47,415 bases of DNA. It comes from a virus. The first letter of the stretch is position 1. Every line of letters begins with the position of its first letter. The translations under genes were made by a program, and so were the position numbers. Shown here one piece after another: positions 11,761 to 33,419 of this stretch. The stretch spans positions 1-47,415 of IMG/VR virus record IMGVR_UViG_3300050014_001165; one strand, 5' to 3'. Under the pieces are notes generated by a model that saw only the letters and a program-made list of their open reading frames with translations, had not been told where the DNA came from and made no database searches.

Positions 11761-12597
11761 ATGAATTTGCGAAAAGGATATATTTATATTATCATTAATC
11801 ATATTAATGGAAAATATTATTATGGAAAAACATTTTATATTGAAAGAAGATGGCAAAGTCATCTTTTAAATGCTTCTAAAAAAATAAATAGAAGATTATA
11901 TGATGCTATGAATTATTATGGATATGAAAATTTTTCTGTTCATAAGATAAAAGAAATTTATTTGCCAGCTGATAATATTGCTAAAGAATTAAATAGATTA
12001 GAAATCTATTTTATTAATTTGAGCGAATCATTAAATCCAAAATATGGATATAATATGATTAATGGAGGAGATGGAGGAGATACATTAACAAATAATCCTA
12101 ATAAACAATTCATTATTAAAAAAAGAACAAATAGCAATAAAGGGAAAAAAAGAAGTTTCGAAATTTGCCAAAAATTTTCTGAAATACAAATAAATATTCA
12201 TTCTTCTCTTTCTCAAGAGGAGGAAAATGAAAGAGGAAGAAAGATTGCAGATTCAAGAATAAAGAGAATCGAAATATCGGGATTTTCCAAAAAAGAAATA
12301 TTAGCTCAAATATCAAATGCAGAAAGATTATCTGATTATAATAGATCCGATATAGGAAAATTCACCTTATCCAAATTGCTTAAAGGGAAACCAAAACCCC
12401 CATTTACAAAAAGCCATAGAGATAATATAGGTAAAGCTAGCGCTGGAAGAAAAATCCCGGGTCGAAAAATATTTATCGAAAATAAGGAATATGAGAGTTT
12501 ACATGAAGCTTTCAGAATTTTAAACATTCCTTTGATGACCATTAGAAATAGATTAATAAATAAAAACTTTCCTGATTGGATTTATTTGGATAAATAG
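11761..12597 (+). CDS. GIY-YIG homing endonuclease (free-standing)
   Basis: 278 residues. The GIY-YIG catalytic domain is at the N-terminus: GYIYIIINHINGKYYYGKT (about 6-24) gives the Y-I/Y-G pair, with ERRWQSH supplying the catalytic Arg and a GYENF helix near 60. It is followed by NGGDGGDTL and a basic DNA-binding region with a NUMOD-like segment (NKGKKRSFE) and a C-terminal helix-turn-helix-like part ending FPDWIYLDK. It cleaves intronless or HEG-free alleles to promote its own spread. It lies between the helicase and a tRNA-like RNA and interrupts no recognisable gene. First of three GIY-YIG genes here. Confidence 0.9.
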   Translation: MNLRKGYIYIIINHINGKYYYGKTFYIERRWQSHLLNASKKINRRLYDAMNYYGYENFSVHKIKEIYLPADNIAKELNRLEIYFINLSESLNPKYGYNMINGGDGGDTLTNNPNKQFIIKKRTNSNKGKKRSFEICQKFSEIQINIHSSLSQEEENERGRKIADSRIKRIEISGFSKKEILAQISNAERLSDYNRSDIGKFTLSKLLKGKPKPPFTKSHRDNIGKASAGRKIPGRKIFIENKEYESLHEAFRILNIPLMTIRNRLINKNFPDWIYLDK

Positions 12598-15341: not shown

Positions 15342-17543
15342 ATGGCAATGATAGAAAAAATCAACCAACTAAAAAGCAAAACAACTTCTACTGAAGTTAA
15401 AGCTCTATGCGAAATTGCACTTGCAGGATTAAATTCAACTATGTACAATAGTATGACTCCAGAAGCTAAATATGAAATTGAAAAATTTTCTATAACTAAG
15501 CTTTTTGAAGGATTAAGCAAATCGCAGGATCTTGATACTAAGAAATGGCTTGAAAGAGAAAAAAGAGCTTGGGCAGTAAAAAACCTGGGAGTTAGGGAAT
15601 CAATTTCAAATCTTTCTTTAACAGAAGGAAAAGATAATTATGCTTTAAAATCTACTCTTGAATATTTCAAAGAAAGTATTAATGAAGGAGTTCTGGAAGT
15701 TCGTTTATATGAATCTTTCTTAACAGCTATGCAATCATTTTCATATTTTCCAAAAGTTGGAAATGCTATTAAAGCTATAGAGGATCAGGTCAAGACCTAC
15801 AAAACTGATGTTGTAATAACAAAGATTGTAGATACTATGAAAGAATCTAAAAGCAGTTATCTAGTTCCCCTGATTGAAGATACTATTCAGAATTATCTTG
15901 ATGATAAAAACCCGCAAACTCAAAGTTTTGTAAAGGAATGTCTTATCAAGTTTTCTTATGATCCTTTTATTAGAGATATTATAAATTTAGTAACCCTTGA
16001 TGCTACTGAGCTTCAACTTGAACATGCAAATGCTTCTTGCGGTATTGAGAAGGTTTATTCTCCAATACTTTATTTAGGAGAAAACGAAGCAGTATTTGCT
16101 GTCAAAGGTCTTTATTATGTTAAGAAAGGTAATGTAGTTTCTAGATTAACCGAAAAAGATTCTAAGAAATTAGATCCAACCTTCGTTTCTCTATGCGAAG
16201 CTATTAATAATCCTAATGTTGTTATCGATGGTAAATCTATTTCTATTTATGATAAAACCGATAAAGCTATTATTACAGAAGATAAAATTTCTATAAACGG
16301 AAAAGATATTACTAATGAGGAATTTTCTAATAGCGCTGAAATAGCTCATTGGACAGGTAAGGGTCATCTTCTTGTACTTGTTGAAACTTTGAGAAAAAAT
16401 TTCAATGAAATTGCAGAAATTGATTTCGCCAAGAGAGTATTCTTAAAAGAAGATGAAAATCATGCAGCAGATGTATTTAAGCTACGTGGTAATGTATATG
16501 TAGCTACTCATAATAGCACCGACGGAAAGAGTACTTTCTATCGTAATATTAATCCTATTCAGGCTAAAAGTATTATGATGGAACATCTTCGCTATGATAT
16601 TTCAAGATTATTTGAAGGACTTCTTCCGGAAGATGAGAAAATCATTGAAGAAATTGAAGAAACTAAAAAAGATTATAGGGATTATATTCAACTTCTAGAA
16701 ACTAAGATGTCTGATTTTAAACAAAATCCTTATGGAACTGAAATGAGTAATCAAGTTATTGAAGCTCTTCAGGAAGAACATGATGATGTTCAAAATGAAT
16801 ATAAGGACTATTTAGCAAAAGCCGAAAAATATACTCGTCCTTTGGGAGAAGCTATTACTGTTACAGTTGATGTTGATGGAAAGAAATATACTGTTCCTAT
16901 TCCAAAAGAAGGCGGTGGGGAAGGATCTATAGAAGGGGGAAATGGTGAAGAAGGTGGAGCTGAAGTTGGAAAAGAAGATATGGATGTTCAACCTGCTTCT
17001 GCAGTAACTTTTGATCAAGATCAAACTGAATTACTTGGAGATACTCCAACCATAGCTACTGATACTGTTAATCTTGGTGGTGATGAAGCTGAGGCTGATG
17101 CAGATAAGAAAGAAGCTGAAGAAAAAGCTAAGGGAAAAGAAGGTGAAGAAGGAGGAGATGAAGTAAAACCAGAAGGTGAAGAAGGTGGTCCAGAAGATCT
17201 TGAAGGTGGTGAAGAAGATGAAATAAAAATTGAAGATAAATCAGATAGTGATGAGGAAGGGGAAAAGGATGATGAAGATGACGAAGAAAAAAAGAAAAAA
17301 TCCCCAATTGAAGATTCGACAGCTGAAAAAACTGAAGTTCCTAAAAAACGTAAAGTATTTTTAAAAAAAAAGAAAGCTCTTAAAGAAGATTTAGTAGTCG
17401 AAACAGCAACAAAGAAAAAAACAGCAGCAGAAAAGAGTAAGGGGTTACAAGCAAAAATAAAAGCAGGGGAACATAAAACCGCAGAAGATAAGAATATGGA
17501 GATTTTTCGTGAAAAATTAAAATCTGATGCAAAAAAGAGTTAA
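15342..17543 (+). CDS. Large virion-associated protein with acidic and lysine-rich tail
   Basis: 733 residues. The N-terminal 480 residues are mostly helical with short beta parts (GKGHLLVLVETL, DVFKLRGNVYVATHN). From about 525 the protein is Gly/Glu/Asp-rich (GGGEGSIEGG, EGEEGGPEDLEGGEEDE), then a basic tail (KKRKVFLKKKKALKEDL) and a helical end. An acidic stretch followed by a basic tail suits a packaged or scaffold-like protein that contacts DNA or capsid, but no family is recognised. It lies in the head gene block, six genes upstream of the portal. Confidence 0.65.
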   Translation: MAMIEKINQLKSKTTSTEVKALCEIALAGLNSTMYNSMTPEAKYEIEKFSITKLFEGLSKSQDLDTKKWLEREKRAWAVKNLGVRESISNLSLTEGKDNYALKSTLEYFKESINEGVLEVRLYESFLTAMQSFSYFPKVGNAIKAIEDQVKTYKTDVVITKIVDTMKESKSSYLVPLIEDTIQNYLDDKNPQTQSFVKECLIKFSYDPFIRDIINLVTLDATELQLEHANASCGIEKVYSPILYLGENEAVFAVKGLYYVKKGNVVSRLTEKDSKKLDPTFVSLCEAINNPNVVIDGKSISIYDKTDKAIITEDKISINGKDITNEEFSNSAEIAHWTGKGHLLVLVETLRKNFNEIAEIDFAKRVFLKEDENHAADVFKLRGNVYVATHNSTDGKSTFYRNINPIQAKSIMMEHLRYDISRLFEGLLPEDEKIIEEIEETKKDYRDYIQLLETKMSDFKQNPYGTEMSNQVIEALQEEHDDVQNEYKDYLAKAEKYTRPLGEAITVTVDVDGKKYTVPIPKEGGGEGSIEGGNGEEGGAEVGKEDMDVQPASAVTFDQDQTELLGDTPTIATDTVNLGGDEAEADADKKEAEEKAKGKEGEEGGDEVKPEGEEGGPEDLEGGEEDEIKIEDKSDSDEEGEKDDEDDEEKKKKSPIEDSTAEKTEVPKKRKVFLKKKKALKEDLVVETATKKKTAAEKSKGLQAKIKAGEHKTAEDKNMEIFREKLKSDAKKS

Positions 17544-24188: not shown

Positions 24189-24196
24189 TATATTTG
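24189..24196 (+). promoter_or_regulatory. Candidate Bacteroidota-type -7 element
   Basis: TATATTTG fits the TAnnTTTG -7 consensus of the Bacteroidota primary sigma factor, 20 bases before the ATG at 24217. No clear -33 TTTG was found at the expected distance. It would drive the 24217 membrane gene and possibly the tmRNA. Confidence 0.3.
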
Positions 24197-24216: not shown

Positions 24217-24483
24217 ATGTGGATTGCTGAAATTCTTTTAACTATTTTTGCTTGGAGAAAAGGCTGGAAATGGTCATCTTTACTTCCTATGGGTATAGGA
24301 TTAATTACTGGGGTTTCAATTGGTTTTCTAGTTGGAGCTAATGGAGGAGATGAAAATTCTGTTCGAGGAATAGGTTTTTTGATTGATCTCTTAGTTATTG
24401 GAGTACTTATTTACATGATTTCAAAAGGACCTAAAACTAAAGCAGTAAGTCCTGAAGATACTACTTTGATGAAGAATAAATAA
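24217..24483 (+). CDS. Small two-pass membrane protein
   Basis: 88 residues with two or three hydrophobic segments: IAEILLTIFAW near the start, LLPMGIGLITGVSIGFLVG (about 26-44) and GIGFLIDLLVIGVLIYMI (about 54-71). A polar lysine-containing tail follows. No family recognised. It lies directly upstream of the tmRNA and could be co-transcribed with it. Confidence 0.65.
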   Translation: MWIAEILLTIFAWRKGWKWSSLLPMGIGLITGVSIGFLVGANGGDENSVRGIGFLIDLLVIGVLIYMISKGPKTKAVSPEDTTLMKNK

Positions 24484-24512
24484 TAAAAAGAAGTTAAAAT
24501 AGGAAAAAGATA

Positions 24513-24753
24513 TTGGGAGTGCTCGAAAGAGCTAATTATAGAGTAGGCGTGAAACACCTGGGGGCAGAACCCAGCATCTCCACAATTGCCTTAAGATTCG
24601 CTAATCCGTCGCGTTAGTACGGTTTTTTGGGGATGACTTAGCTTTGACTTCACGTTGAGGGAAATGATGATTATTCCAATAAACGCAATAAACGGCGAAA
24701 ATAGTTTAGAAATGAAAATGGCTGCTTAAGAAGCACTATTTCTCAGGAGACTT
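24513..24753 (+). ncRNA. ssrA: Permuted (two-piece) tmRNA gene
   Basis: Acceptor piece about 24513-24582: T-arm CTGGG/CCCAG (24558-24574) and acceptor 3' strand CATCTCC (24575-24581) with A82 as discriminator. CCA is not encoded. Spacer 24583-24628. Coding piece from 24629: acceptor 5' strand GGGGATG pairs with CATCTCC in 7 bp with G.U at pair 3, the alanine identity feature. A D-like segment ending TTTGAC follows, then TTCACG (24649-24654) pairing with CGTGAA (24548-24553) as helix P2. The tag frame is GCA 24685 to TAA 24729, AINGENSLEMKMAA. AGTGCT (24518-24523) can pair with AGCACT (24732-24737), joining the outer ends. Exact ends are approximate. Confidence 0.87.
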
Positions 24754-24781
24754 GCTGGCAGCCTAAGTGCCAGCTTTTTTT
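24754..24781 (+). terminator. Terminator of the tmRNA gene
   Basis: Perfect 7-bp stem GCTGGCA (24754-24760) / TGCCAGC (24768-24774), loop GCCTAAG, then seven T. The next ATG (24782) follows the T-tract with no gap. Closely related in sequence to the hairpin at 25288-25315. Confidence 0.88.
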
Positions 24782-25282
24782 ATGAAAAAATTTAACTATT
24801 TTTATAAAACCACCAATTTAATAAATGAAAAATTTTATTATGGAGTTCATGCGTCAAATAGTTTAAATGATAAATATCTTGGCTCGGGAAAAATGATTCT
24901 AAGAGCTATTAAAAAATATGGAAGAGAAAATTTTAAAAAAGAAATTTTGCATGAACTTGAAGATTTTAAGAAAGCATTAGAATTCGAATTTAAATTTATT
25001 ACTAAAGAAATATTGAAAAATCCACTTTGCTATAATATAAATCCTGGAGGTAAGGGGGGTTCCCCAAAAGGCCGAAGATCCCCAATGAAGGGAAAATTTC
25101 ATTCAGCAGAATCCAAAATAAAAATTAGTAAAAGTGAAATGGGCCAATCAAAAAATCTTGGAATGATTCATTCTTTAGAGACAAGACAAAAAAGGAGTCA
25201 AAATAATGGAATGAAAAATAACGGAAGTTTAGTTGCTGGGCCTCTTAATGGAATGTATAAGAAAAAACATGGTATAAAATAA
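24782..25282 (+). CDS. GIY-YIG homing endonuclease next to tmRNA
   Basis: 166 residues from ATG 24782. A GTG at 24767 in the same frame lies inside the terminator stem and is less likely. GIY-YIG features: FNYFYKTTNLINEKFYYGVHAS gives the Y..Y-YG pair in variant form (residues 4-19). The catalytic-helix region is LGSGKMILRAIKKYG, with a family-typical E in FKFITKEIL and YNINPGGKGG near residue 85-94. Two NUMOD3-like basic segments (KGKFHSAESKIKISKS, SLETRQKRSQ) bind DNA. It sits between two related terminators downstream of tmRNA, so it is probably a mobile insertion there. Confidence 0.85.
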   Translation: MKKFNYFYKTTNLINEKFYYGVHASNSLNDKYLGSGKMILRAIKKYGRENFKKEILHELEDFKKALEFEFKFITKEILKNPLCYNINPGGKGGSPKGRRSPMKGKFHSAESKIKISKSEMGQSKNLGMIHSLETRQKRSQNNGMKNNGSLVAGPLNGMYKKKHGIK

Positions 25283-32840: not shown

Positions 32841-33419
32841 TTAGCTTCTAAGATTTTGGAATAATTTAAATTTGGTTTTTCCATACATTGGGTTATTTTC
32901 CCCTGTAGTAGCTTGACTTATTTTTCTTTTTGTTTCTTCTGATCTAGGTTTTCCAATCTTAGCTTTGCTTAATTTATTTCTAGTTTCTTCAGATACCTTA
33001 TGTCCTTTTAATGAATTACTGATTTTTAATTTGCTTTCTTCTGTAAGATTTTTTCTCCAAGGATGTTTTAACCCTTTTTGTGCTTTACTCATTTTTAATT
33101 TAACTTCATCAGAATAATTTATACCTAATGTGCTCCCGGCTTTTTTAGATATATTAAAATATGGTTTGTATTCATTTATAAAATTTTGTTCATTTTTTAT
33201 TAATTTCTTTGGATCACATTTTAGTAATATAGAAAATTCTAAATCATTTTCACCAAATTCATTATAATGGGATTGCAGTTTTTTATTATGTTTATTTTTT
33301 CTCAAACATATAATATGAACAGAACATCTATTTTTAAAATTAACAGCACTTCCGATATAAATTCTTTCTGGTTTAATTTTGGATTGTATTTTATAAATTC
33401 CAGAAAAACTATTTCCCAT
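32841..33419 (-). CDS. GIY-YIG homing endonuclease with NUMOD3 repeats
   Basis: 192 residues: GIYKIQSKIKPERIYIGSA (residues 7-25) is the GIY...YIG pair, followed by FKNRCSVH with the catalytic Arg and YNEFGENDLEF. From about 100 there are four NUMOD3-type DNA-binding repeats (SDEVKLKMSKAQKG, TEESKLKISNSLKG, SEETRNKLSKAKIG, SEETKRKISQATTG). It starts 1 base after the stop of the tail gene at 33421 and is at the junction of the convergent blocks. It interrupts nothing recognisable. Confidence 0.92.
   Translation of the reverse strand: MGNSFSGIYKIQSKIKPERIYIGSAVNFKNRCSVHIICLRKNKHNKKLQSHYNEFGENDLEFSILLKCDPKKLIKNEQNFINEYKPYFNISKKAGSTLGINYSDEVKLKMSKAQKGLKHPWRKNLTEESKLKISNSLKGHKVSEETRNKLSKAKIGKPRSEETKRKISQATTGENNPMYGKTKFKLFQNLRS

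Follow-up and report, generated by a model that had tools for sequence, protein, structure and literature searches.

The stretch of DNA analyzed here (the window) makes up an entire virus record (47,415 bases) and is probably a piece of a larger genome; sequence comparison confirms on its plus strand a predicted circularly permuted (two-piece) phage tmRNA gene at positions 24517 to 24781. The putative acceptor piece comes first. It comprises a 5' hairpin, GCTC-GAAA-GAGC (24521 to 24532; most relatives have a hairpin there with a different sequence), the 3' strand of helix P2 (CGTGAA, 24548 to 24553), a T-arm CTGGG-GGCAGAA-CCCAG (24558 to 24574), delineated by an anatomy scan and comparison with its clade, and the 3' strand of the acceptor stem (CATCTCC, 24575 to 24581) with the discriminator A73 (24582). 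An intervening segment of 46 nt (24583 to 24628), delimited by dissecting the clade, is predicted to be excised. The coding piece would then start at the acceptor 5' strand (GGGGATG, 24629 to 24635), whose 5' end is a predicted RNase P site and which takes part in a G3.U70 pair, and continue through a 13-nt D-arm-like linker, ACTTAGCTTTGAC (24636 to 24648), of the TAG class that goes with the GGCAGAA T-loop class. The P2 5' strand (TTCACG, 24649 to 24654), placed by the anatomy scan and covariation, is followed by the tag reading frame, GENSLEMKMAA-stop with resume codon GGC (24694 to 24729), and by a terminator hairpin, GCTGGCA...TGCCAGC, plus T run (24754 to 24781) as the 3' end; at this position relatives have hairpins that differ in sequence. 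The original prediction had put the gene at 24513 to 24753. Its location holds, as do the acceptor 3' half upstream of the 5' half, the 7-bp acceptor stem with G.U at pair 3, the TTCACG/CGTGAA pairing of P2, and the 13-nt linker, all at the coordinates above, but the gene continues at its 3' end to the terminator.

Upstream, a gene for a small membrane-type protein of 88 aa (24217 to 24483, plus strand) has a homologue in the corresponding place in L023, and the tmRNA is probably on the same transcript; a possible but weak Bacteroidota -7 box, TATATTTG, was seen by eye at 24189 to 24196. The plus-strand sequence AAAATAGGAAAAAGATATT (24498 to 24514) is a probable remnant of the 3' end of a zinc-ribbon-like ORF (...IGKRY) that is intact in L020 and L007, where it ends at the tmRNA. 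Directly 3' of the tmRNA lies a homing-endonuclease gene (phrog_314, NUMOD3; 24782 to 25282, plus strand), and a GIY-YIG/NUMOD3 gene (15844 to 16581) likewise sits 3' of the tmRNA in L023. Further homing-endonuclease genes occur in the window at 11761 to 12597 and 32841 to 33419. A T4-type portal protein (PF07230; 19953 to 21785, plus strand) was used to place the phage and to fetch its relatives.

Searching the whole window against Rfam returned a single RNA above threshold, tmRNA_permuted (RF04321), at 24525 to 24766 with 48.8 bits (E = 1.1e-6), barely above the cut-off of 47. The Rfam search proposed with the original prediction thus returned the expected family. Because the end of the model was placed on the terminator, GCAGCCTAA, rather than on the tag end, GCTGCTTAA, this score understates the match. 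ARAGORN, the other program proposed, detected no tmRNA in the window, and the one-piece model (RF00023, cut-off 47) had no match in the whole record. The alpha_tmRNA model (RF01849) matched partially, over model positions 90 to 166 of 355, at 39.2 bits, short of its cut-off of 50. The identical tmRNA sequence is present in a second, longer contig (L014, 65.9 kb), so the gene is not an assembly accident of a single record.

A portal search of IMG/VR yielded 17 loci, and a permuted tmRNA lies downstream of the portal in those that extend far enough past it, about 1 to 4.5 kb away within the window's clade. L007, found through a tmRNA pattern, shares this arrangement and has a related portal, and no portal relatives were found in 85,000 prokaryote genomes. 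Thirteen distinct sequences, window included, were dissected, and all 13 have an identical set and order of tmRNA parts. The acceptor stem, T-stem, and P2 each pair far better within than between sequences (0 of 5,000 permutations each; n = 13). This within/between measure replaced alignment pair counts; in alignment A1, P2 is offset by 1 to 2 columns between subgroups. Both G3.U70 and A73 are kept in 13 of 13; the first anatomy scan had imposed G3.U70, and a later scan that left the U70 side free still found it in all 13. The distance from acceptor to resume codon is 63 to 69 nt across the clade, and most members have a 3' hairpin of varying sequence and then a T run. The covariance model, the covariation, the clade-wide gene and position, and the degradation-type tag support a phage-encoded permuted two-piece tmRNA as first proposed, and on this comparative evidence the gene is real and very likely functional.

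Two features first regarded as aberrant, the GGCAGAA T-loop and the missing CCA, proved to be ordinary for such genes. The window's T-loop occurs with a TAG D-arm (CTTAG), as does the GGCGGAA T-loop of L007; nine clade members have a TTCGA T-loop with a GG D-arm, and L021 and L022 have other pairs. Among 56 distinct viral sequences picked for a GGC[AG]GNA T-loop, 55 have AG in the D-arm, and the alpha_tmRNA consensus has the same GGCRGNA T-loop/TAG D-arm pair. The window's T-loop therefore belongs to one of two coupled T-loop/D-arm classes and is not a sign of decay. CCA is encoded in none of the 13 clade sequences and in neither of two Bacteroidales one-piece tmRNAs.

The tag frame is open and ends in AA as predicted, but its start had to be revised, the proposed AINGENSLEMKMAA being less likely than GENSLEMKMAA. 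The window contains two TAAAC contexts, one before GCA (24685) and one before GGC (24694). Resumption at GGC is preferred because L007 has an in-frame stop upstream of the resume position, because L020 and others lack a GCA in the originally proposed frame, and because the spacing and the context TAA(A/C)(C/T) directly before GGC are kept in the clade; a GGC/GAC resume position is kept in nearly all members. Judged on these grounds, GENSLEMKMAA with resume codon GGC at 24694 is the most likely tag. Clade tags span 10 to 12 codons and end in AA in 12 of 13 sequences and in VA in 1. The others are GETVNEMRMAA, DNTVYEMKMAA, GTYNEMKMAA, GENLYELKMAA, GENKTEMAMAA, GEQFNEYRIAA, GANKQTFAMAA, GVQTQEFAMAA, GEKQTQFAMAA, DAETRTFAMAA, ANNQEMLMAA, and GAFETRELAMVA. 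The GEN start of the window's tag and its context resemble those of Bacteroidales one-piece tmRNAs (TAACT followed by GGCGAAAA; tag GENNYALAA).

The closest relatives of the portal are in Prevotella Lak megaphages (43%) and LR756500 (41%), followed by other huge phages, Tenacibaculum PTm1 and PTm5, Sphingomonas PAU, and Chryseobacterium MA9V; a second large protein of the window points to the same relatives. The portal tree, which has some long branches in other parts, places Lak as sister to the window clade. This kinship with Bacteroidota phages makes a Bacteroidota host likely. The suggestion that a permuted gene would be foreign to such a host has statistical support: in a sample of genomes drawn evenly across the phylum, one-piece tmRNA was above cut-off in 141 of 148, and a permuted match above cut-off occurred in only 2 of 395 (G022 and G256). 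Genes resembling KilA-N and recombinase genes (by eye) accompany the G022 copy on its contig, and the G256 copy (L094) adjoins a tRNA-like gene; the permuted tmRNAs of L094, L063, and L064 probably belong to prophages or phage contigs. Two Bacteroidales genomes with a permuted copy, G021 and G022, also have a one-piece tmRNA of their own (151 and 155 bits), and it is these that carry the GENNYALAA tag and lack an encoded CCA.

Gene form varies among the related phages. Lak A1, B4, and C1 have one-piece tmRNAs (54, 47.3, and 49.4 bits) no more than about 0.5 kb from the portal; LR756500 and LR756504 have one-piece tmRNAs distant from it; and PTm5, PAU, pT24, and MA9V-1 had no match to the one-piece or the permuted model. 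Because the Lak gene next to the portal is one-piece, a switch of gene form, or a replacement of the gene, took place within this phage group. One plausible account, to which we give somewhat less than even odds, is that the permuted form arose or was assembled within this Bacteroidota phage group from a one-piece phage tmRNA, making it a further lineage besides the alphaproteobacterial, betaproteobacterial, and cyanobacterial ones. The sister position of Lak and the portal-linked genes in both groups are consistent with this, as are the Bacteroidota-type tag start and resume context and tag endings like those of one-piece phage RNAs (GNNAEMRMAA in LR756500, read by eye, and DDEIDFRMAA in Lak, compared with GENSLEMKMAA in the window). 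When nine clade records were rescored, none reached the alpha, beta, or cyanobacterial cut-off, the best being L007 with an alpha score of 49.8 against 50. However, tags ending in MAA are found in marine phage tmRNAs with alpha-type T-loops as well, and the ending is therefore not exclusive and weaker as proof of descent; in Lak the tmRNA is on the other side of the portal from that in the window clade, and the long branches in the portal tree also count against a within-phage origin.

Alternatively, and more tentatively, a permuted tmRNA may have been acquired from an alphaproteobacterial-type source, whether host or phage, and its tag later adapted to a Bacteroidota host. In the window and L007, a GGC[AG]GNA T-loop is combined with a TAG D-arm, as is typical of alpha_tmRNA; these two genes score 39.2 and 49.8 bits with that model; and a tmRNA of the kind belonging to a different host group has been published from a marine phage (PMC9004378). 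Both scores nevertheless fall under the alpha cut-off, and the canonical TTCGA T-loop is found, with a GG D-arm, in 9 of the 11 other clade sequences, which gives the alpha-type arm the look of a local replacement. The tag ending and start favor permutation having arisen here, and the alpha-type T- and D-arms of the window and L007 favor at least partial exchange.

Whatever its origin, we read the locus, with a probability of about 0.88, as a permuted phage ssrA whose product would work as a two-piece tmRNA tagging proteins with (A)GENSLEMKMAA; here we infer cleavage, charging, SmpB use, tagging, timing, and host. A single transcript would undergo two cuts by tRNA-processing enzymes, one at A73 (24582) and one ahead of GGGGATG (24629), losing the spacer and leaving two pieces held together by the acceptor stem and P2. 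CCA would be added by the host, and G3.U70 could direct alanine charging of the acceptor piece. With host SmpB and EF-Tu bound to it, this piece would enter ribosomes stalled on broken mRNA, where translation would resume at the GGC of the coding piece and add (A)GENSLEMKMAA before the stop codon freed the ribosome. For a large lytic phage, the benefit could be continued ribosome recycling during mRNA degradation. Counted against a working tmRNA are the near-cut-off score, the negative ARAGORN result, the GGCAGAA T-loop, and the lack of an SmpB match in the clade's contigs, which are fragments (one of 260 kb). This last point weighs less because of that fragmentation and because hosts have their own SmpB; Lak A1 and B4 encode one (about 185 bits; W01:507053-507484 and W10:118615-119046). 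It might instead suit a decoy RNA, one that would titrate SmpB or shut down host trans-translation in the way reported for a known tag-less phage RNA, that of DS6A (PMC4131195, PMC11915505), but a decoy would not need the tag frame, ending, and resume spacing that are kept in 13 of 13 sequences, and we consider it improbable. A decaying or recently captured functionless fragment, which the weak model score in the window phage might suggest, is less probable still given compensatory changes in all helices and retention across the clade.

The predicted excised spacer harbors a 24-nt element, CGCTAATCCGTCGCGTTAGTACGG (24599 to 24622, plus strand), present in 10 viral contigs and clearly inside a permuted tmRNA spacer in nine of them; the tenth, L058, has a weak permuted-model match (28.9 bits). 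Freeing five positions of the element in the search returned the same ten contigs. Its carriers are the window, L007, L018, and L055 to L064. Across 11 aligned spacers, 22 of 24 element positions are invariant and the flanks are not, although the phage tmRNAs that carry the element are divergent. In most, the element lies 6 to 7 nt before the acceptor 5' strand, and in others it lies farther away, behind an insert. The flank 5' of the element folds into a sequence-variable hairpin, often with GCC in the loop, which in the window is a weak hairpin, its loop containing GCC, at 24584 to 24598 (plus strand) forming part of a structured spacer; summed over the 11 spacers, folding was matched by 0 of 2,000 shuffles, in a test that shuffled letters only and followed notice of the pattern. 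The element has no Rfam match, and the 24-mer was not found in isolate phages or plasmids. A search of 85,000 genomes on both strands gave two exact matches. Each lies in the spacer of a permuted tmRNA on a Bacteroidales MAG contig, and phage-type genes (by eye) are present on at least one of these contigs; on this basis a host site or antisense match was rejected as a reading of the element. A model of the element matched 1 of 395 Bacteroidota genomes, an already known carrier. A candidate H-type pseudoknot in the spacer (CTAAC/GTTAG plus CCGT/ACGG) was rejected, as loops of 0 and 1 nt hardly span the helices. The remaining clade members have short spacers or different folds, and in L016 and L020 AAACT/AGTTT and a co-varying helix (GTGCGG/CCGCAC versus TGTATGG/CCATACA) resemble an H-type pseudoknot. 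From its position we would guess that the element is a maturation signal. We speculate further, and consider it rather unlikely as a whole, that the GCC-loop hairpin and the 24-nt element ahead of the predicted RNase P site make the spacer a new structured RNA whose role is to direct or regulate two-piece maturation, in a lineage born within Bacteroidota phages.

Like the alphaproteobacterial, betaproteobacterial, and cyanobacterial tmRNAs of RF04321, the window's gene has the permuted order, the acceptor/T/P2 layout, G3.U70, a spacer that is excised (predicted here), and an AA tag ending; it differs in its Bacteroidota-type tag, its unencoded CCA, and its score close to the family cut-off. 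Phage two-piece tmRNAs, mostly marine, are already published (PMC9004378), and the permuted model, which merges the alpha, beta, and cyanobacterial forms, has 79 phage sequences in the database (PMC11915505). Those of the Methylophilales phage Melnitz and of pelagimyophages (PMC9004378) are likewise phage-borne, permuted, from T4-like myophages, and with a structured RNA in the gene, but they are of the alphaproteobacterial kind with a glutamine riboswitch, whereas the window's phage is Lak-related and has a Bacteroidota-type tag and a different spacer element. The Lak one-piece tmRNAs (MK250016, MK250023, MK250029) share with it related phages, a portal-adjacent gene, and the MAA ending, but have the standard gene order and, in A1 and B4, an accompanying SmpB. 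Bacteroidota one-piece tmRNAs share the GEN start, resume context, and unencoded CCA, but are a single piece with tags ending in YALAA. A study of huge phages that used ARAGORN to find tmRNAs described these along with SmpB genes and made no mention of permuted forms (PMC7162821). In the open literature searched, we came across neither a permuted tmRNA from Lak-related phages nor the spacer element; both look new.

Two-piece tmRNA has come from three bacterial lineages and their phages, and here it occurs in a phage group tied to a one-piece phylum. With Lak, the sister group, keeping the one-piece form near the same gene, the change in gene form becomes traceable within one virus lineage. As the ARAGORN result illustrates, standard annotation can miss permuted tmRNA genes, and a spacer thought to be waste can harbor a strongly conserved RNA element. 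Phages also carry tag endings of their own. A search with two patterns, written for canonical permuted tmRNAs whose spacers are short, retrieved 84 viral contigs (L123 to L206) of up to 171 kb, one representative of which showed nothing beyond tRNA-like pieces when compared with isolate phages. Their tags are mostly of the G(E/A)QVE(M/L)AMAA type, for example, GEQVEMAMAA or GKVINLFSAPVRLAA, with a smaller set of the form GKVI...PVRLAA.
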